From the IMG/VR virus record IMGVR_UViG_3300035661_000176, positions 1-36,769 of that record: a stretch of DNA of 36,769 nt; one strand, 5' to 3'. Source of the DNA: a virus. Each line of letters begins with the position of its first letter. Positions within the stretch are counted from its first letter, which is position 1. A program made the translations under genes and the position numbers. Positions 67 to 36,717 of this stretch are shown in pieces. Under the pieces are notes generated by a model. It worked only from the letters and a program-made list of their open reading frames with translations. It was not told where the DNA came from and did no database searches.

Positions 67-552
67 GTGCCCGTCACGCCGCGCAATCGCACCGCGAAGG
101 CACTTGCGGAGCAGCCGAAGCCGGCACCTCGCAAGCGCGCCGCGAAGAAGGCCACTCCGCCGCCCCCGCCCGAGCCGCCGAAACCGGTGTTCGAGTCGGT
201 GCTCGAGGAGACCGATCGCGCGATCACCGCGGCCCCGCACCTCGGTGCGATGGACGCCGGCGCCATCGCGGTCGCTCGCGAGCTCGCATTCACCATCGAC
301 CAGATGCACGACCGACCCTCGACGGACATCGACGGCAAGGCGCTGCCGCTCGACAACGTGACGATCCCGACCTACCTGCGGTTCTGCGAGCAGCTGGGGC
401 TCACCCCGGCCGGGCGCATCAAGCTCGGCGACCCGAAGACGAAGGTCGGCGGCAAGCTCGGGCAGCTGCGCGCGATCCGCGGAGGTGACTCGGATGCCGC
501 CAGCGACGCGAAGCCGAAGCGCTCGAGTGGTCGCACTACCCGCCACACGTAG
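67..552 (+). CDS. terS: terminase small subunit (probable)
   Basis: This 161-residue protein starts with GTG and precedes the large terminase gene, overlapping it by about 60 bases. The N-terminus (about residues 1-40) is basic and then proline-rich. The middle (about 45-135) looks folded and includes the segment FCEQLGLTPAGRIKLG, and the C-terminus is basic. Small terminase subunits recognise the packaging site and hand DNA to the large subunit. The assignment rests on position and on general resemblance to actinophage small terminases, because no catalytic motif exists to confirm it. The start is uncertain, since no strong ribosome-binding site precedes the GTG. Confidence 0.65.
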   Translation: MPVTPRNRTAKALAEQPKPAPRKRAAKKATPPPPPEPPKPVFESVLEETDRAITAAPHLGAMDAGAIAVARELAFTIDQMHDRPSTDIDGKALPLDNVTIPTYLRFCEQLGLTPAGRIKLGDPKTKVGGKLGQLRAIRGGDSDAASDAKPKRSSGRTTRHT

Positions 553-2062
553 GCGCGTCGGCTCCGAGACGCCGCGGATCTTCACCCCGCCGCTGCGGAA
601 GCTCACGCCGAAGACGACGCTCGGGTTCGAGGTCATCGAGTTCGCCGAGGAAGTCCTCGGGATCATGCTGCTGCCCTGGCAGAAGTGGCTCCTCGTCCAC
701 GCGCTCGAGCTTCTCCCCGACGCCACGTTCCGGTTCCGCACCGTCGTCGTCCTCGTCGCCCGGCAGAACGGCAAGAGCACTCTCGCCCAGGTGCTCGCCC
801 TGTGGAAGCTCTACGTCGACGGCGCGCGCCTAGTCATCGGCACCGCGCAGAACCTCGACATCGCCGAGGACGTGTGGAAGGGCGCCGTCGAGATCGCGCA
901 GGAAGTGCCCGAGCTCGCCGAGGAGATCGAGCGCGTCGTCCAGGTCAACGGGAAGAAGGCGCTCGAGCTCACCTCGGGTGCGCGCTACAAGGTGCAGACC
1001 GCGAACCGCCGCGGCGGCCGTGGACTCTCGGGCGACCTCGTCATCCTCGACGAGCTGCGCGAGCACCAGACCTGGGACGCCTGGGCCGCGGTCACGAAGA
1101 CGACGCTCGCCCGGGCCGAGGCTCAGGTGTGGGCGCTGTCGAACGCCGGCGACTCGTCGTCGGTCGTGCTTCGGTTTCTGCGCCGCGCTGCGCACAAGGC
1201 GGTCGGTGATCCAGACGGTCTGTGGGAGAAGGACGACCTCCTCGTCGCCGACGAGGTCACCGACGACATCGGCGACTCACTCGCCGACCTCGAGGACGAC
1301 GACTCCCTGGGCCTGTTCGAGTGGTCCGCCCACCCCGACCGATCCGTGCACGACCGCGACGGCTGGGACGAAGCGAACCCCTCGCTCGGCCACACCATCA
1401 CCGAGCGCGCGATCTCTTCCGCGATCCGTACCGACCCCGAACCCGTGGCCCGCACCGAGGTGCTGTGCCAGTGGGTCGACGGGTCGATGGAGACCGTGAT
1501 CCCCGACGAGCGCTGGCGCGACGGTGCACCGAAGCAGGACGAGCCGGTCGCCGAGCTCGTCTCCGCGATCATCCCGTCGGTCGACGTCGCCCCCGGGCAG
1601 TCCTCCGGAGCGATCGCCGTCGCCGGCCTCCGCGCGGACGGGTTCGAGCAGGTCGAGATCATCGCCCACGAACCGGGCATGTCGTGGATCATCCCGCGGC
1701 TCCTCGACGTCGTCGCGAAGCACCACCTCCCGATGCGCGTCGCGATGATGCGCGGCCCCGGTGGGGCACTGGTCCCCGACCTGGTGAAGGCCGGGTTCGA
1801 GGTCGAGTACCTCGGCGGAGACAAGGCCTCGTCCGCGTGCGGCGGGTTCTTCTCCGCCGTGATGGAGGGGCGACTCAAGCACCTCGACGACGCATCCCTC
1901 AACGCCGCGGTGGGCGGCGCCGCCCGGCGGATGTCCGGGGACGCATGGACGTGGACCCGTAAGGACTCCACCTCCGACATCTCACCGCTCGTGGCTGCGA
2001 CCGCAGCACGGCACGTCATGGCCGGGCTCGTCGATGAGCCGCAGAGCATCCAGGTCTACTGA
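494..2062 (+). CDS. terL: terminase large subunit, ATPase and nuclease
   Basis: This is the 522-residue packaging motor. It has a Walker A motif at residues 89-96 (ARQNGKST), a Walker B motif at 182-187 (LVILDE) and a C-terminal RNase H-like nuclease region. That region starts near SVDVAPG (about residue 365) and ends near TSDISPLVAA. The ATP-driven motor translocates DNA into the prohead and cuts concatemers at the packaging site. ATG at 494 was preferred over the in-frame GTG at 485 because GGAGG at 481-485 overlaps that GTG but sits 8 bases before the ATG. The gene overlaps terS, which suggests translational coupling. The call is firm. Confidence 0.95.
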   Translation: MPPATRSRSARVVALPATRRRVGSETPRIFTPPLRKLTPKTTLGFEVIEFAEEVLGIMLLPWQKWLLVHALELLPDATFRFRTVVVLVARQNGKSTLAQVLALWKLYVDGARLVIGTAQNLDIAEDVWKGAVEIAQEVPELAEEIERVVQVNGKKALELTSGARYKVQTANRRGGRGLSGDLVILDELREHQTWDAWAAVTKTTLARAEAQVWALSNAGDSSSVVLRFLRRAAHKAVGDPDGLWEKDDLLVADEVTDDIGDSLADLEDDDSLGLFEWSAHPDRSVHDRDGWDEANPSLGHTITERAISSAIRTDPEPVARTEVLCQWVDGSMETVIPDERWRDGAPKQDEPVAELVSAIIPSVDVAPGQSSGAIAVAGLRADGFEQVEIIAHEPGMSWIIPRLLDVVAKHHLPMRVAMMRGPGGALVPDLVKAGFEVEYLGGDKASSACGGFFSAVMEGRLKHLDDASLNAAVGGAARRMSGDAWTWTRKDSTSDISPLVAATAARHVMAGLVDEPQSIQVY

Positions 2063-2242: not shown

Positions 2243-3441
2243 CGTTCCTGGGGCGCCTCCTTGAGTCGCGTGGCCTCAACGACCCGCAGATCCCGATCTC
2301 CTCGCAGAACCTGTTCGAGTACCTCGGCTACGACACCGCCAACGACTCCGGTGAGCCGATCAGCGAGAAGCGGGTCATGGGCATCCCGGCGTTCATGCGT
2401 GGGGTTCGGATCATCTCCGGCACCGAGGCCGGGCTGCCGCTGAAGGTCTACCCCAACAAGGACAGCCGCGAGACGGTCGATGTCCCGTGGCAGGGTCAAT
2501 CCTCGACGACTGGGCAGACCTGGTTCGAGCGCGTCGAGACCTCAGCGATGCACCGGTGCACCTGGGGCGAGACGTTCTGGTACAAGAAGCGCGACAAGAA
2601 CCAGCGCATTGTCGACTCATTCCCGGTGCATCCGTCGCGAATCACGGTCGATGTGGTGCCGCTCGGGCGAGAGAAGATCGAGTTCTACAAGCTGTACCTC
2701 CTCGACGGGTCGATCCCCCTGACCGACTGGGAGATCATGCACGTCCCCGGCCCGTCGACCGACGGCGTGCGCGGCATCTCCCCGATCCAGGCACACCGCC
2801 AGTCCCTCGGCATCGCCATCGCCGCCGAGCGCACCGCCGCGCGCATGTACGGCCAGGGCATGTTCCATGCCGGCATCATCACGAGCGACAAGCCCATCGG
2901 TGAGGAAGACGCCAAGGCCGTCAAGTCGCGGTGGAAGTCCGTCCACGGCGCCGGCACCAACTCCGCCGGCGACATCATGGTCCTCGGCAACGGAGCCAGC
3001 TTCTCTCCGCTCACCATCCCGCCGGGTGACGCGCAGTTCCTCGAGTCGCGGATGTTCTCCGTCACCGAGATCAGCCGCATCCTCGGGCTCCCGTCGTGGA
3101 TGCTGAACGACCAGGAGAAGTCGACGTCCTGGGGCTCCGGGATGGAGCAGCAGTTCATCGCCTGGGTGACTCTGTCGGTCAAGCCCGAGGCGCAGCGCCT
3201 CGAGCAGCGCATCAGCGCCGAGCTCTGCCTCCCTCGCCAGGTCGCCGAGTTCAAGCTCGAAGGCCTCCTCCGCGGTGACTCTGCAGCGCGGGCTTCGTTC
3301 TACGGCTCCGGCATCGAACACGGGTGGCTCGTCCCCAACGACGTGCGCACCCTCGAGAACCTCGACCCCGTGGCTTGGGGAGATAAGCCGTACCTGCCCT
3401 ACAACAAGCCTGCCCAGACACAGCCAGGAGGTGCCGCATGA
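2239..3441 (+). CDS. portal protein (HK97 type)
   Basis: This 400-residue portal is expected to form the dodecameric ring at one capsid vertex through which DNA is packaged and ejected. The N-terminal segment PISEKRVMGIPAFMRGVRII followed by GLPLKVY is typical of the HK97-like portal family, as are ISPIQAHRQSLGIAIAAER and the later EISRILGLPSWML. The start at GTG 2239 overlaps the upstream stop and has GAGGAG a few bases upstream. Earlier in-frame GTG codons would run through the membrane-protein gene. Position between terminase and protease supports the call. Confidence 0.93.
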   Translation: MTFLGRLLESRGLNDPQIPISSQNLFEYLGYDTANDSGEPISEKRVMGIPAFMRGVRIISGTEAGLPLKVYPNKDSRETVDVPWQGQSSTTGQTWFERVETSAMHRCTWGETFWYKKRDKNQRIVDSFPVHPSRITVDVVPLGREKIEFYKLYLLDGSIPLTDWEIMHVPGPSTDGVRGISPIQAHRQSLGIAIAAERTAARMYGQGMFHAGIITSDKPIGEEDAKAVKSRWKSVHGAGTNSAGDIMVLGNGASFSPLTIPPGDAQFLESRMFSVTEISRILGLPSWMLNDQEKSTSWGSGMEQQFIAWVTLSVKPEAQRLEQRISAELCLPRQVAEFKLEGLLRGDSAARASFYGSGIEHGWLVPNDVRTLENLDPVAWGDKPYLPYNKPAQTQPGGAA

Positions 3442-4343
3442 CGGTCACTGCCACTCGGGCCACCCAGGTCATGGAGACCCGGACCGCGCCGATCGCGGCC
3501 GTCGCTGCGGAACTCCGTGCCACGGGCGACGCTGCGCCCCGGTTCCACGGAACCGCGATCGTCTACAACCAGCGCACCGCGATCGGGAACCCCGCGTCTT
3601 GGGGCTGGTACGAGGAGATCGCGCCCGGCTGCGCGTCGAAGACGCTCGCCGAGTCCGACGTGCGGTTCCTCGTCGACCACGAGTCGCAGCTCGTCGTCGC
3701 GCGCACCTCCGCCGGCACGCTGCAGCTCACCGACACCGCCGCCGCACTCGAGGTCGACGCCGACCTGGACCAGCGCCTGTCCTACGTGGCGGACCTCGCG
3801 GTCAACCTCGAGACGAAGAACGTCACCGGGATGTCGTTCGGGTTCTACGTCGTGAAGGACGAGTGGACGACCGAGACTGTCACGGTCACGAACTCCGCCG
3901 GCGCCGACACGGAGATCGAGGTCGAGGTCCGGCGCATCCTCGAGATCCGACTCGTCGAGGTCTCCGCCGTCACGTTCCCCGCCTACGACATGACCGACGC
4001 GGGCCTGCGCTCCATGTGCGCCGACGTCCGCTCGATCGCCCGTGGCGTCATCCCGCCGGCCGCCGCTCGGAAGCTCGCGGGCTGCATGTGCGGCGACGGG
4101 TCGTGCACGTGTGCCGACGGCACCTGCCTGTGCCCGACCGGGATGTGCGACTGCGCGAACTGCTCGGCGCAGCAGAACTCCACGAAGCTTCCCGACCCTT
4201 CCTCGGGCGGGACCCGCGAGCCGGCCGCAGCCACTCGCGAGAACAACGACGACGAGCCGGCCGCAGCCACTCGGAGTGACGAGGAGCACGACCGGGAGTT
4301 CCGCCGCAGGGCGATCCTCCTCGGCCAGCCGATCACCGACTGA
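3438..4343 (+). CDS. prohead (capsid maturation) protease with Cys-rich C-terminal tail
   Basis: This 301-residue HK97-type serine protease is expected to cleave the capsid delta domain during maturation. The protease fold spans about residues 35-195. Candidate catalytic residues are His81 in VDHE and Ser133 in GMSFGF, both in the usual motifs. The tail is unusual. Residues 216-242 carry nine cysteines as a tandem heptad: CMCGDGS, CTCADGT, CLCPTGM, CDCANC. This is followed by a duplicated EPAAATR element and a charged end. The Cys tail could bind metal or form disulfides and might survive as a separate peptide. ATG 3438 overlaps the portal stop (ATGA). Confidence 0.92.
   Translation: MTVTATRATQVMETRTAPIAAVAAELRATGDAAPRFHGTAIVYNQRTAIGNPASWGWYEEIAPGCASKTLAESDVRFLVDHESQLVVARTSAGTLQLTDTAAALEVDADLDQRLSYVADLAVNLETKNVTGMSFGFYVVKDEWTTETVTVTNSAGADTEIEVEVRRILEIRLVEVSAVTFPAYDMTDAGLRSMCADVRSIARGVIPPAAARKLAGCMCGDGSCTCADGTCLCPTGMCDCANCSAQQNSTKLPDPSSGGTREPAAATRENNDDEPAAATRSDEEHDREFRRRAILLGQPITD
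4218..4273 (+). repeat. 20-bp direct repeat in the protease gene
   Basis: Two identical 20-base copies lie at 4218-4237 and 4254-4273, a period of 36 bases. Each encodes EPAAATR. They sit in the charged linker after the Cys-rich tail and keep the reading frame, so copy-number change would only lengthen the linker. Confidence 0.85.
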
Positions 4344-21899: not shown

Positions 21900-23072
21900 A
21901 TGCCACACATCCAGCAGCGCCCAAGCGGGTCTTACCGGGTATCACTGAGGGTCAACGGACAGCAGAAGAGCGCCACGTTCGCGTCCATGAGGGATGCCGA
22001 AGCCTTCTCCCGGCTCGTCGACCGTCTCGGTGCCGCCGAGGCCCTCATGCTCCTCGACGCACAGCAGGGCATCGGCGCGTCCATCCCCACCGTCACCGAG
22101 CTCTGCGCCCGACACCTGGCCGGACTCGACGGCATCACCGACGGAACCCGCCTCGACTACGAACGCATGGTCGCGCGCCGCATCGAGACCCAGCCCATCG
22201 GCGCGCTCCCCGTCACCGTCGTCACCGTCGAACTCGTCCGCACCTGGCTCGCCTACCTCGAGCACGAGGGCCTGTCGACGAAGACCCGCCGCAACCACCA
22301 CGCGCTGCTCTCCGCCGCCTTCCAGACCGCGATCCGCGAGCAGCTACTCGGACGGAACCCGGCCAAGGGCATCACGCTCAAGAAGTCCGAGGCTGACGCC
22401 GGCCGCGTCTTCCTGACTGCGGGCGAGTTCGCGGTGCTCCTGGCCGCGATCGACTCACACTTCGTCCCCTTCGTCGCGTGGCTCGCCGGGACAGGGATGC
22501 GCTGGGGCGAGGTGACCGCGCTGCTGGTCGGTGACGTCGACCTCGACGCCCCCACTCCGGTGGCCTACGTGCGCCGCGCGTGGAAGCGCACCGGCAAAGG
22601 TGGGCATGACGCGGCGCCGCGCGCGCCGAAGACGCGCGCTGGGCTCCGTACCGTGCCGTTAGCGCCGGAGGTTGTCGCTGTTGTCCGGCATCTCGTCGAC
22701 GAGCGACCGGCCGACGCCTACGTCTTCACTGCGAAGGGTGGCGGCCCGGTCCGCAACGACCACTTTCACGCCCGAGTCTGGAAGCCCGCACTCGACCGGC
22801 TCAACGCCCGCGTCGACGAGAACGGCAACCCGAAGACCCCGGCCCTGACGAAGCGGCCGAACGTCCACTCCCTGCGCCACACCTTCGCATCCGCACAGAT
22901 CGCCGCCGGGGTGAACCTTCTCGACCTCAAGGTCCACCTTGGGCATGAGTCCATCACCACCACGGTCGACACCTACGGCCACCTGCAGACCGGAGCGCTC
23001 GCGACGGGAGCCGCGGCGTCGTCGCTGTTCCTGCGCCAGGCGCTGCCCGAGGTGCTCGAGATCGAGGGCTAG
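21900..23072 (+). CDS. int: tyrosine integrase
   Basis: This 390-residue site-specific recombinase has an N-terminal arm-binding region (about 1-60), a core-binding helical domain (about 65-160) and a catalytic domain (about 170-370). Catalytic residues are visible: Arg201 (TGMRWGE), Lys244 (APKTRAG), His323 and Arg326 (HSLRHTFA), His349 (HLGHE) and Tyr359 (DTYGHL). It should integrate the phage into the tRNA gene whose 3' end is copied at attP, 105 bases upstream. Its stop overlaps that of the convergent repressor gene by the CTAG bases. Antisense repressor transcription could reduce its expression in lysogens. Confidence 0.95.
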   Translation: MPHIQQRPSGSYRVSLRVNGQQKSATFASMRDAEAFSRLVDRLGAAEALMLLDAQQGIGASIPTVTELCARHLAGLDGITDGTRLDYERMVARRIETQPIGALPVTVVTVELVRTWLAYLEHEGLSTKTRRNHHALLSAAFQTAIREQLLGRNPAKGITLKKSEADAGRVFLTAGEFAVLLAAIDSHFVPFVAWLAGTGMRWGEVTALLVGDVDLDAPTPVAYVRRAWKRTGKGGHDAAPRAPKTRAGLRTVPLAPEVVAVVRHLVDERPADAYVFTAKGGGPVRNDHFHARVWKPALDRLNARVDENGNPKTPALTKRPNVHSLRHTFASAQIAAGVNLLDLKVHLGHESITTTVDTYGHLQTGALATGAAASSLFLRQALPEVLEIEG

Positions 23073-23518
23073 GTCTGCTCAGGCTCTCGCGGCTGGAGAG
23101 CGGCGACGACCCTCGCTAGCGACTCGTTCATCGTCTTCTGCATCTCAAGAACCGCAGTGAGTACGTCTTCCCTCTGACCCGGCATCCATCCCTCTCCCCG
23201 ATCGCGCTCTGCGATGGGTGGAGCCTTTCGGGAGGGTCCGACAACGGCCCTTGTCAAGGCGACACGCCGTGTCTCGCTATCCGGTGAGACGAGGTCGAAC
23301 TCCACGTCGAGTGGCCACCCGAAGGCATCGCCGAGCTTAGTGAGGGTGCTCTCGTCGACCCGCTCGATGCTGCCGTTCATGAATCGCTTCATGGTTCCGT
23401 CGGACGGCCCGCCGTTCGCCTGAAAGTCATCCCACGTCCAGCGATCTGTGCGCCGCCTGCGCTTCACGCTGTCTACCACGGCCTGGCGCAGTTCTGGGGT
23501 CACGTCCATGCGCTCCAT
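23069..23518 (-). CDS. immunity repressor (probable), HTH DNA-binding
   Basis: This is a 149-residue leftward protein. Residues about 8-72 form a helix-turn-helix region (VTPELRQAVVDSVKRRRRTD, then SDGTMKRFMNGSIERVDEST and LTKLGDAFGWP). The rest is charged and may mediate oligomerisation, ending in a helix (VLTAVLEMQKTMNESLARVV). It is divergent from the Cro-like gene and convergent with the integrase, the usual place for a repressor. ATG 23518 gives the folded start, and an ATG 3 codons later is also possible. TATCTT lies 9 bases before the ATG, so the mRNA may be leaderless. No protease-like autocleavage domain is seen. Confidence 0.75.
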   Translation of the reverse strand: MERMDVTPELRQAVVDSVKRRRRTDRWTWDDFQANGGPSDGTMKRFMNGSIERVDESTLTKLGDAFGWPLDVEFDLVSPDSETRRVALTRAVVGPSRKAPPIAERDRGEGWMPGQREDVLTAVLEMQKTMNESLARVVAALQPREPEQT

Positions 23519-23680
23519 CGTGTCTGCAAGATACCCGCAAACTCCAGGGCAACTTCGCAAAGAACACGATGGGGATTCCTCAGCGCGCCGCTCTGCCGCG
23601 CCGAGCGCTAGTGCCCTGACCTGCATCGTTACCAAACTTTCCTTGCGAGTCTTGTGCTTGTCGGTACTTTGCGGCACAGT
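23519..23680. promoter_or_regulatory. repressor/Cro divergent control region with four TTTGCG-type sites
   Basis: The 162 bases between the two regulator genes carry TTTGCGG and TTTGCGA on the minus strand (23535-23541, 23555-23561). CTTGCGA and TTTGCGG lie on the plus strand (23642-23648, 23668-23674). They are nearly symmetric about 23602-23604 and point outward, adjacent to -10-like TATCTT (minus strand, 23528-23533) and TACTTT (plus strand, 23665-23670). Operator function is inferred. A CCTGACCTGCA copy of the attP-type motif lies at 23614-23624. Confidence 0.55.
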
Positions 23681-23986
23681 ATGGGTATGCCAGCAACGAG
23701 CCGCCGAACCACCAAGGGCGGAACCCTCACCCCTCCCCTCGTCGGGCTCGGGCACCTGCGCGTGGCCCACGGATACACGCTGGACGAGGTCGCTGATGGT
23801 GTCGCCGCCATCACGGGCAAGTCGCGGCCGAACCCCGGAACCATCTCCGGTGTCGAGCTCGGCCACCGCAAGCCGTCCGAGGACCTCCTGGCAGCGCTCA
23901 TCGAGTTCTACGAGCTCGACAGCAAGCCGCACGTTTACCCCCGCCCGCGGCTCATCCCCACCCCGTCGAAGTCGGTCGCGGCGTGA
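23681..23986 (+). CDS. Cro-like XRE-family HTH regulator
   Basis: This 101-residue protein is the first gene of the early operon, divergent from the repressor. The HTH spans about residues 20-80: LTPPLVGLGHLRVAHGYTLD, then NPGTISGVELGHRKPSEDLL and ALIEFYEL. This pattern is typical of XRE proteins. No ribosome-binding site precedes ATG 23681 (or the alternative ATG 23687). With TACTTT 10 bases upstream of 23681, translation from a leaderless mRNA is likely. It probably represses the repressor promoter. The stop overlaps the next start (GTGA). Confidence 0.78.
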   Translation: MGMPATSRRTTKGGTLTPPLVGLGHLRVAHGYTLDEVADGVAAITGKSRPNPGTISGVELGHRKPSEDLLAALIEFYELDSKPHVYPRPRLIPTPSKSVAA

Positions 23987-24213
23987 GCGAGCCCGCCACC
24001 TTCGACGCCGCCGAGTTCGCGCGGCGCCTCGATGACGGCCACACCGCCGCATGGGTCAGCACCCAGGCCACGGCCGGCGTCATCCCCAGCCGGAAGGTCG
24101 GGAAGTACCGCCGCTACACGGCCGCCGATCTGGACGCCTACCTCGAGTCCGTCCGCGAGGGCGGCGATGCACCGCGCCTCTCGCGGCTCACGCGGAAGCG
24201 GAAGTCGGCATGA
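23983..24213 (+). CDS. MerR-like small DNA-binding protein, candidate excisionase
   Basis: This 76-residue protein has a winged-helix/excisionase layout. The N-terminal helix is DAAEFARRLDDGHTAAWVST, followed by GVIPSRKVGKYRRYTAADLD, in which the R-K-x-G-x-x-R-R-Y wing and the terminal ADLDAYLE helix are typical. The C-terminus is basic. Excisionases direct integrase toward excision. Being the second gene after the Cro-like gene and carrying this fold makes it the best candidate, although a general regulator is possible. Confidence 0.7.
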   Translation: MSEPATFDAAEFARRLDDGHTAAWVSTQATAGVIPSRKVGKYRRYTAADLDAYLESVREGGDAPRLSRLTRKRKSA

Positions 24214-30480: not shown

Positions 30481-30569
30481 CCACGACGTTCCTGCCCGAC
30501 GTGCCCGTCCACCAGATCCGCGTCCACGGCAACAACCCCCGCCGCAGCATCGGCGACACCACGCGATGA
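30477..30569 (+). pseudogene. ParB-like N-terminal remnant (30 residues)
   Basis: A short coupled frame encodes MTTTFLPDVPVHQIRVHGNN and then PRRSIGDTTR. The pattern V-x-x-I-x-x-x-x-NPR-x-x-x-G-D is the start of ParB/Srx-type domains, but the frame stops at TGA 30567-30569 after 30 codons. No continuation is seen in other frames because the XF1762-like gene starts at 30566. It is probably a deletion remnant still translated as a peptide. Confidence 0.5.
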
Positions 30570-31015
30570 GCCTCAACCTCGTCCCTGTGTCGCAGCGCGC
30601 GGCGAAGAAGGCGTGTGCCGACTGGCACCGCCACAACAAGCCGCCCATCGGATCGCTGTTCCAGGTCGGTGCCGCCACGGCAGAGGGTGAGCTCGTCGCC
30701 GTAGGGCTGGCAGGACGCCCGGTCGCACGCCACCTCGACGATGGCAACACCGTCGAGGTCACCCGCGTCGCCTCGTCCGGATACCCGAACGCGACGTCGA
30801 TGCTCTATGGCGCTCTCCGTCGCGCCGCCTTCGCCCTCGGCTACACCCGCGTCATCACCTACACCCAGGCCGACGAGTCGGGCAGCAGCTTGCGCGCCGC
30901 TGGATACCGGGTCATTGGCGAGCGCCCCCCCCGTCCCGGCTGGGACAGCGCAGCACGCCCCCGCGATGACGCGGGCTACCGATCAACCGCACGCACACTC
31001 TGGGAGGCGTCATGA
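30566..31015 (+). CDS. XF1762-like (GNAT-related) protein
   Basis: This 149-residue protein carries the hallmarks of the XF1762 family of phage proteins: WHRHNKPPIGSLFQVGAA, then LAGRPVARHLDDGNTVEVTR, YPNATSMLYGALRRAAFALG and YTQADESGSSLRAAGYRVIG. The layout is that of an acetyltransferase-like fold, but a substrate is not known. It starts one base inside the ParB-remnant stop (TGATGA overlap). The C-terminal half is shared by many phage relatives. Confidence 0.75.
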   Translation: MSLNLVPVSQRAAKKACADWHRHNKPPIGSLFQVGAATAEGELVAVGLAGRPVARHLDDGNTVEVTRVASSGYPNATSMLYGALRRAAFALGYTRVITYTQADESGSSLRAAGYRVIGERPPRPGWDSAARPRDDAGYRSTARTLWEAS

Positions 31016-33768: not shown

Positions 33769-33961
33769 GCGCGACGACCCCGAGCACGAAGCCCACGTGG
33801 CGATGCTCTACGACCACCACGGCTTCACCACCGGCTACCAATACCTGTGCTCCTGCCAAGCCGCCGGCAGCCAGCAGCCGACGCAGATCGCGGCGATCCG
33901 CGAGCACTTCACCCACCTCGCCGACATCGGCATCCGACCGAAGGAGAAGATCGAGCAGTGA
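33761..33961 (+). CDS. small early protein, unknown
   Basis: This 66-residue protein starts at GTG 33761 with a perfect AGGAGG at 33751-33756. It contains HHGFTTGYQYLCSCQAAGSQ and REHFTHLADIGIRPKEKIEQ, with two cysteines and several histidines, possibly a small metal site. It overlaps the Ntn-hydrolase gene (GTGA), so the two may be functionally linked. Confidence 0.65.
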   Translation: MAERDDPEHEAHVAMLYDHHGFTTGYQYLCSCQAAGSQQPTQIAAIREHFTHLADIGIRPKEKIEQ

Positions 33962-34497
33962 CCTGCATCGTGGCCGTGGAGGCCGACGGCATCGTCTACA
34001 TGGGATCGGACCACGCCGGATCCAACGGCTACACCCTGACCCCTGTCGAGGCCTCGAAGACGTTCACGAACGGCCCCCTGCTCATCGGCTACACGACGTC
34101 GTTCCGCATGGGACAGATCCTCCAGTACGGCCTCATCGTCCCGTCGCACACGCTGTCCTGGGACCTCGACAGGTGGGTGGCAACTGACCTCATGGTCGCC
34201 GTCCGGGCCACGTTCGAGGCGCACGGGTGGAACCAGACCGAGAAGAACGTCGCCACCGGCGGCAACTTCCTCATGGCTGTCGGTGGCAGGTGCTACGAGA
34301 TCCAGTCGAACTACTCGTTCCTGCGATCGGCGACCGGAGAGTACGCCGTCGGTTCTGGTGAGAATCACGCCCTCGGATCGCTCCACACGACGCGGGGACA
34401 GGAGCCAGCCGTGCGCGTCATGCGCGCACTGGAGGCTGCGGCCGAACACTGCACCGGGGTCGCTGGTCCGTTCGACCTCACGACACAGAAGGCATGA
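33958..34497 (+). CDS. Ntn-hydrolase resembling HslV / proteasome beta subunit
   Basis: This 179-residue protein has nearly the length of HslV. After removal of the initiator Met, Thr would be residue 1 (TCIVAVEADGIVYMGSDHAG). Asp17 lies in GSDHAG and Lys33 in EASKTF, exactly the positions of the catalytic Thr1, Asp17 and Lys33 in proteasome-type proteases. The following GPLLIGYTTSFRMGQILQYG fits the next strand and helix of that fold. No ATPase partner such as HslU is encoded nearby. It could degrade or process host or phage proteins, or be a non-proteolytic Ntn-amidase. The GTG start overlaps the upstream gene (GTGA). Confidence 0.72.
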   Translation: MTCIVAVEADGIVYMGSDHAGSNGYTLTPVEASKTFTNGPLLIGYTTSFRMGQILQYGLIVPSHTLSWDLDRWVATDLMVAVRATFEAHGWNQTEKNVATGGNFLMAVGGRCYEIQSNYSFLRSATGEYAVGSGENHALGSLHTTRGQEPAVRVMRALEAAAEHCTGVAGPFDLTTQKA

Positions 34498-34498
34498 G

Positions 34499-34897
34499 AT
34501 GGCGCTGCCATGGGTCCGACTGGACTCCAACATCGGCACGCACGACAAGGTTCTCGACCTCCTGTCGCGACCCAACGGCCACAAGGCGTTCGTCTTCTAC
34601 ATCGCCGCGATGGGCTGGTGTGGCGGCCAGGGGACGGACGGCGTCATCACCCTCGCCGCCTTCACGATCAACCACGGCAGCCGCAAGCTCGCCGACCTCC
34701 TCGTCGACGTGCGCCTCTGGGAGCACCGCGAGGCCGGCGCCTACGCCTTCCCGACATGGGCGCGGCGCCAGGAGTCGGCCATGGTCCGCGAGGTCCGGGC
34801 CACGCTGCAGTCGATGGGCGCGAAGAAGGCCAACTGCATCAGGTGGCACGGCAAGGACTGCGGATGCTGGCAGCGACCCGAGAGCGAAGCGTCATGA
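34499..34897 (+). CDS. replication-initiator-like winged-helix protein
   Basis: This 132-residue protein starts at ATG 34499, one base after the upstream stop triplet. It opens ALPWVRLDSNIGTHDKVLDL, a common start of phage replication-organiser proteins. It continues KAFVFYIAAMGWCGGQGTDG, then a wHTH-like TLAAFTINHGSRKLADLLVD and RLWEHREAGAYAFPTWARRQ. The C-terminus has CGCW and basic residues. It is shorter than usual initiators, so it may be only the DNA-binding part. The next gene holds an AT-richer repeat tract that might be the origin. Confidence 0.65.
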   Translation: MALPWVRLDSNIGTHDKVLDLLSRPNGHKAFVFYIAAMGWCGGQGTDGVITLAAFTINHGSRKLADLLVDVRLWEHREAGAYAFPTWARRQESAMVREVRATLQSMGAKKANCIRWHGKDCGCWQRPESEAS

Positions 34898-36353: not shown

Positions 36354-36438
36354 CCCGTGGACAGAAGATCGGGTACGCTGCGGCTGAGGCCCAGTGGTGA
36401 ACGTCGCCGCTGGCCTTCGTCATGTCGGGAGGTGCGAC
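36354..36438 (+). promoter_or_regulatory. probable promoter leader of the HNH/terminase operon
   Basis: The gap contains TACGCT at 36374-36379, a good actinobacterial -10 in the context GGGTACGCTG. TGGACA at 36358-36363 is spaced too closely to be its -35. A stem of about 9 bp with a bulge (GGCC-AGTGG with CCGCTGGCC, about 36388-36416) follows, then GGGAGGT as ribosome-binding site. A late-gene promoter is plausible but unproven. Confidence 0.4.
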
Positions 36439-36717
36439 GTGGCAGGTAAGCATGCAGGTCGCCACGGATCACGCTGGCGCAGAGTCAGGGCCGAAGTCCT
36501 CGCAGTCTCAGACGTGTGCCACATCTGCGGCCGCCCCGGCTCGACAACGATCGACCACTACCCGATCAGCCGCGCCGACTGCATCGCGACAGGCCGCCTC
36601 GACCTGCTCGAGGACAAGGCCAACCTCCGCCCCGCCCACCTCACCTGCAACAGCCGACGCGGCCGTGGTGGTGTCGTCGCAGCAGTCACACCGAGGAAGA
36701 CATCGCGAGCATGGTGA
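36439..36717 (+). CDS. HNH endonuclease
   Basis: This 92-residue protein starts at GTG 36439 with GGGAGGT 5 bases upstream; an earlier in-frame start at 36394 lacks such a site. The HNH fold shows CHICGRPGSTTIDHYPISRA and then NLRPAHLTCNSRRGRGG, providing the DH, Asn, His and the zinc Cys residues. HNH proteins encoded next to the terminase are known packaging components in cos phages and are needed for specific cutting. On the circular map it lies immediately before terS. Confidence 0.92.
   Translation: MAGKHAGRHGSRWRRVRAEVLAVSDVCHICGRPGSTTIDHYPISRADCIATGRLDLLEDKANLRPAHLTCNSRRGRGGVVAAVTPRKTSRAW

Follow-up and report, generated by a model that had tools for sequence, protein, structure and literature searches.

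A proteasome-like Ntn-hydrolase, probably an AAH-type threonine hydrolase, in a probable actinobacteriophage

The window, that is, the whole stretch of 36,769 nucleotides analyzed here (IMG/VR record IMGVR_UViG_3300035661_000176, positions 1 to 36,769), encodes near its right end a 179-residue protein for which computation shows a predicted Ntn-hydrolase fold of the proteasome beta type with invariant Thr1, Asp17, and Lys33. We consider it likely that this protein is a group I proteasome homologue of the AAH type (PHROG 1040), an N-terminal Thr hydrolase that forms a ring, works independently of HslU on few substrates, and is carried by an actinobacteriophage that is probably temperate. The family is already described and is widespread in phages, and the window protein adds to it. 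The features are listed in Table 1.

Table 1. Positions of the Ntn-hydrolase gene, its motifs, and other genes in the window
Feature	Position	Strand	Remark
Large terminase	485..2062	+	54% identical to Arthrobacter phages
Head maturation protease (phrog_80), ordinary	3438..4343	+	
Tyrosine integrase	21900..23072	+	closest to Gordonia/Mycobacterium phages
Upstream gene, 66 aa	33761..33961	+	4-base overlap (GTGA) of its stop with the Ntn-hydrolase start
Likely ribosome-binding site AAGGAG	33941..33946	+	11 nt 5' of GTG; read from sequence
Proteasome-like Ntn-hydrolase gene	33958..34497	+	179 aa, GTG start; PHROG 1040, probably AAH-type
Thr2 codon (mature Thr1), predicted N-terminal nucleophile	33961..33963	+	invariant in 103/103; aligns with residue 1 of BPH, HslV, and 20S beta
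Asp18 codon (mature Asp17)	34009..34011	+	invariant in 103/103
Lys34 codon (mature Lys33)	34057..34059	+	invariant in 103/103
Family motif G[FY]T[ST]SFRMGQ, here GYTTSFRMGQ	34087..34116	+	stands where HslV/proteasome have the AGG oxyanion-glycine motif
GSG motif	34351..34359	+	Ser133 aligned to the helper serine of HslV/BPH; Cys in most relatives
Replication initiation protein (phrog_3926), next gene	34499..34897	+	closest to Mycobacterium/Gordonia/Rhodococcus phages
HNH endonuclease, right end	36394..36717	+	motif read from sequence; position relative to the Ntn-hydrolase as in Pitbull

Gene start, predicted fold, and catalytic residues

Translation of the open reading frame gave (V/M)TCIVAVEADGIVYMGSDHAGSNGYTLTPVEASKTF..., which bears out the 179 residues and the Thr1/Asp17/Lys33 register of the initial annotation; the removal of Met on which the numbering depends is something we infer. 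A second in-frame GTG lies upstream, at 33847. Three observations support the GTG at 33958 as the start: it follows an AAGGAG, its GTGA overlaps the stop of the upstream gene by 4 bases, and a start codon stands immediately 5' of the Thr codon in 117 of 117 homologues. This last observation also indicates that there is no propeptide and that plain Met removal would yield the nucleophile. The G+C content at the three codon positions of the gene is 0.60, 0.49, and 0.87; that of the record is 69%. Compared with its closest relatives, the gene has a dN/dS of about 0.3 to 0.4, which fits a protein under purifying selection.

An AlphaFold2 model built from an alignment of 89 homologues had a pLDDT of 94.8 and a pTM of 0.90, with helices at residues 49 to 58, 70 to 88, 135 to 144, and 150 to 164 and a strand as the final element. 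Foldseek ranked BPH first and HslV next. In VIA-align, the model matched BPH with a Z score of 21.2 (168 residues, 2.1 A), HslV with 19.4 to 19.6, and the Mycobacterium tuberculosis 20S beta subunit with 18.6; the superpositions cover 160 to 170 residues at Z scores of 18 to 21, and residue 2 of the model coincides with residue 1 of each of these enzymes. The proteasome-type Ntn fold that had been proposed is thus borne out by the model. A profile of the 89 homologues gave the same answer against the PDB (HslV, E of 6e-6; BPH, 1e-5; bacterial 20S beta, 1e-4), again with Thr2 on their Thr1. With the single sequence, phmmer against the PDB returned BPH alone, at an E of 0.47, and Pfam and NCBIfam gave no relevant match, so that the family was reached only through PHROG and the alignment profile. 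The PHROG 1040 match ('peptidase HslV family') has an E of 1.2e-21 over residues 1 to 176.

A tblastn search found homologues in 182 phage records of GenBank, in over 500 contig stretches of IMG/VR, and at 21 GTDB loci; the latter lie in Streptomyces (4), Nitratireductor, Gluconacetobacter, Hyphomicrobiales, and also Myxococcota, and viral contigs are many. The IMG/VR and GTDB loci were located with peptide patterns from the GFTSSFRMGQ region of the alignment, which do not include Thr1, Asp17, or Lys33; an earlier alignment with 18 sequences proved too divergent to serve for these searches. Thr1, Asp17, Lys33, Gly43, and Gly131 are constant in all 103 homologues of the set filtered to less than 90% identity. 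Neither of the outcomes that the initial annotation had named as refuting, another fold or variable catalytic residues among homologues, was thus observed. Family lengths range from 174 to 388 residues, with none below 160. Within the window, the Thr2/Asp18/Lys34 spacing occurs at only 1 of 1,139 starts with at least 60 open codons on either strand, namely that of the gene described here. The initial annotation had treated this spacing as diagnostic in itself. It is not; what decides is the invariance across 103 homologues together with the fold.

In the protein of Moorella phage MTATph1 (WPA89675; L006:4001-4558), the annotated start is 14 codons late and the catalytic Thr1 is lost; the conserved LTCIAG... 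start is recovered from a TTG farther upstream, at locus position 4001.

The region of the oxyanion hole differs from that of the proteasome. The hole is built by a backbone NH. At aligned residue 47, which is Gly47 in the proteasome, the window protein has Thr, and the family has S in 52, T in 44, D in 3, G in 3, and Q in 1, so that Ser or Thr stands at the oxyanion-glycine position in 96 of 103 relatives by sequence alignment. The helper-serine position is Cys in 69 of 103 relatives and Ser in the window protein. Given these two features of the family, ordinary peptidase activity is not assured. The altered residue 47 lowers our confidence in peptidase activity but not in the fold; it is read from the sequence alignment, and the geometry of the hole may or may not differ. 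The proteasome-like nucleophile is well supported; full peptidase competence we infer. The protein could also be cargo, a leftover that has lost catalysis or is purely structural; this would suit the altered motif, the sporadic distribution, and the lack of a known function, but we consider it very improbable, because Thr1, Asp17, Lys33, and the start position are fully invariant in 103 to 117 sequences and the dN/dS value points to constraint.

Relation to AAH, BPH, HslV, and connectase

Fuchs, Alva, and Lupas named 22 new proteasome homologues in 2021 and marked out two, PPH (about 140 residues, no helix H2) and AAH, as strongly phage-borne (PMC8665760). The window protein is not PPH, as it has 179 residues with H2 at 70 to 88. 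It best fits AAH of group I, an assignment made from features and distribution rather than by comparison with the published AAH sequences. It shares with AAH the compact group I form with no propeptide, no insertions, and no C-terminal S12/H5, the Thr1/Asp17/Lys33 set, and relatives in Streptomyces, alpha-proteobacteria, and many phages. With PHROG 1040 the match is full length, and no difference was found. For AAH, the 2021 paper reported no informative gene context and no member with known substrate or phenotype, and in Actinobacteria neither a phage carrier nor a sign of phage transmission (PMC8665760). In contrast, the window record is an actinobacteriophage and a Streptomyces locus is a prophage, as described below. 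The literature that we searched contained no published functional test of AAH or of phage HslV-like proteins.

BPH (PDB 5ovs/5ovt/5ovu) is the closest solved fold, at 18% identity. As the window protein is predicted to do, it exposes Thr1 by Met removal, and it has no dedicated ATPase; unlike the window protein, it retains the oxyanion glycine, and it has a long acidic pore loop. The Thr1 of BPH is bound by epoxomicin, yet the enzyme is inert toward standard peptides and casein (PMC5777263).

HslV (ClpQ) was the comparison first proposed, and here the outcome is divided. The fold, length, Thr1/Asp17/Lys33, and GSG motif are held in common. However, the window protein had no match to the NCBIfam HslV models TIGR03692 and NF003964 at E values up to 1, it differs from HslV in the oxyanion region, and it falls instead in a separate, phage-rich group I family, AAH (PMC8665760). 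The same two models matched 21 to 27 of the 89 relatives weakly, at best with 1e-8. The window protein is HslV-like but not an HslV orthologue. The initial annotation had also noted that no HslU-like ATPase lies nearby, which holds for the whole 36.8-kb record, where no AAA or AAA_2 domain was found, and it had suggested a host ATPase as partner. In a Streptomyces-centered phylum sample of 149 genomes, none had an HslU score above the cut-off, whereas control genomes were positive, and partnership with a host HslU is therefore unlikely. A true HslV that docks on the HslU ATPase of the host and degrades unfolded host proteins would agree with the HslV-like length, N-terminus, and fold (Z of 19.6) and with the name HslV used by PHROG and GenBank annotators. 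We regard it as most improbable, given the HslU result, the lack of AAA+ in the record, the unmatched family models, the better fit to BPH, and a family motif that is unlike HslV near residue 47.

The fold is also compatible with a non-protease, for example, a specific amidase or a protein ligase. Connectase, a ligase, belongs to the proteasome family and provides the precedent (PMC8665760). The altered oxyanion motif T[ST]SFRMGQ, the replacement of the helper Ser by Cys in most relatives, the absence of a dedicated unfoldase, and the inertness of BPH in protease assays would all be in keeping with such an activity. However, the predicted model lacks the two-helix insertion that connectase has between S3 and S4; this region is made of short strands only, the first helix comes at 49, and a compact subunit like that of HslV or BPH favors assembly into a ring. 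A ligase or amidase is, on balance, fairly unlikely.

The phage and the context of the gene

The terminase identity, and likewise the nearest relatives of the integrase and of the replication initiator, group the phage with actinobacteriophages, and the presence of an integrase indicates that it is probably temperate. The Ntn-hydrolase gene lies in the replication arm, close to the right genome end and outside the head cassette. The early-lytic protease aimed at host proteins that had been suggested for it found nothing in its support: an integrase is encoded, the replication initiator adjoins the gene, and relatives often sit in a late head-packaging cassette.

Other genes of the window deserve mention. 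A Mom-like DNA modification protein (XF1762 family, NCBIfam E of 5e-51; phrog_1384) is encoded at 30566-31015 on the plus strand and may modify DNA against host restriction. A short sliding-clamp-like protein (DnaN central domain; phrog_12598/phrog_947) is encoded in this 37-kb phage at 29800-30480, also on the plus strand. The open reading frame that adjoins the integrase, at 23069-24052 on the minus strand, has a helix-turn-helix-like C-terminal part (MDVTPELRQAVVDSVKRR...) and is a candidate immunity repressor, although Pfam gave no confirmation.

Several relatives of the gene are actinobacterial. Gp77 of Arthrobacter phage Pitbull (PQ184828), annotated 'protease', is a homologue that starts with MTTIVAIE and occupies the same place, 5' of a right-end HNH gene with the terminase at the left end. 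It differs in its identity of only 27% to the window protein and in keeping an AG-type oxyanion motif (GVAGVALL). Actinomycetia phage DSL-LC01 has a further homologue, and a protein of Gordonia phage Daredevil has the same fold (BFVD). The chromosomal copy in Streptomyces sp. SID3212 (L035:3465-12445) is followed by genes for HNH, terminase, portal, protease, and capsid proteins, and this neighborhood identifies the locus as a prophage. With the window record, Pitbull, and the Streptomyces prophage, the 2021 statement on Actinobacteria is overtaken. In a quick tree with many open forks, the window clade (with L040 to L042, support of 100) stands among phage proteins, apart from the Streptomyces ones.

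In many IMG/VR contigs, the genes follow the order terL-AAH-portal-protease-major capsid protein, with overlaps of 3 to 4 bp or junctions of a few bases (the terL-AAH-portal contigs include L049, L050, L068, L080, L084, L104, and L107). At less than 70% identity (nr70), terL or portal lies within 400 bp of the AAH gene at 15 of 86 loci. Since in a 40-kb phage any gene has head genes within reach, a within-locus control was used: in loci that hold terL or portal, 15 of 29 AAH genes were adjacent, compared to 41 of 215 other genes (odds ratio of 4.5; p of 3e-4). In the nr70 set, adjacency to terL alone was weak (6/20; p of 0.004 to 0.09), and adjacency to portal was stronger (11/24; p of 8e-7 to 6e-4). 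On the tree, the trait changes 12 times, with at least 4 changes forced. These calls come from a simple home-made gene caller and from profiles seeded with the head genes of the window, which other head-gene families may escape. The signal from the terL-portal placement is real, though moderate. Large Vibrio, Aeromonas, and T5-like phages carry the gene elsewhere, some of them among nucleotide-metabolism genes.

One reading of this placement gives the protein a part in head assembly or packaging, where it would be a second protease, or a processing enzyme, with a late action on a portal, scaffold, or terminase protein. This reading is favored by the recurrence of the full gene order in diverse contigs scattered on the tree, with overlapping or 3-bp junctions, and by the copies in the window, Pitbull, and the SID3212 prophage, which lie just upstream of the HNH/terminase segment. 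On the other hand, an ordinary head protease is also present, the window copy is in the replication arm, the Vibrio, T5-like, and Aeromonas copies are elsewhere, and HNH genes are also found in the gap near terL, which may therefore be a hot spot for cargo genes. We consider this reading quite unlikely for the window protein; because the gene lies elsewhere in the window and in the Vibrio, Aeromonas, and T5-like phages, a role in head assembly is a possibility and not our main claim. A substitute head protease was rejected: the phrog_80 protease indicates that the capsid protease role is already taken, and an ordinary protease is likewise present in Pitbull and at most terL-AAH-portal loci with downstream sequence.

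Some further observations concern the large phages. In three Vibrio phages, a peptide deformylase gene lies about 0.2 to 1 kb upstream of the homologue (L011:1498-1995, L013:2283-2771, L018:133-630); the Met removal that exposes Thr1 requires prior deformylation. In large Pseudoalteromonas, Vibrio, and Aeromonas phages (L004, L010, L012, L015, and L017), the homologue is preceded, directly or after a short distance, by a gene for a PhoH-like ATPase. Several large marine phages have the same domain with 110 to 210 additional C-terminal residues (L004:4001-5167, L010:3001-3984, L015:3001-3963, L017:1501-2367).

Proposed mechanism and implications

For the AAH-type Thr hydrolase that we favor, established proteasome chemistry suggests the following course. 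Host deformylase and methionine aminopeptidase would take off fMet and leave Thr1 as the free N-terminus; Lys33, oriented by Asp17, would deprotonate Thr1, which would then attack an amide bond by way of an acyl-enzyme. Many proteasome-like Ntn-hydrolases self-assemble into rings with internal active sites, and by analogy with BPH and HslV, the subunits may form a homo-oligomeric ring that encloses the active sites. No HslU would take part, as the likely hosts appear to lack it. There is probably no dedicated unfoldase, or else the host may supply one (ClpX or Mpa, for example), and the enzyme may be independent of ATP. Its targets in the phage cycle would probably be specific and few, perhaps a single one. 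In relatives, the recurrence of the gene between terL and portal weakly suggests a phage structural or packaging protein as a better first guess for the substrate than a host protein.

The window record, Pitbull, and the Streptomyces prophage fill a gap in the family, that of actinobacterial phages with AAH. The recurrence of terL-AAH-portal, absent from the 2021 family paper, is the first hint from context known to us and opens the function of the family to testing. It is decidedly unlikely, though conceivable, that phage AAH proteins are late head-assembly Thr hydrolases of the terL-portal cassette which process or join a virion protein beside the usual capsid protease. Such a role, if true, would put the proteasome fold to a new use, in the assembly of virus particles.
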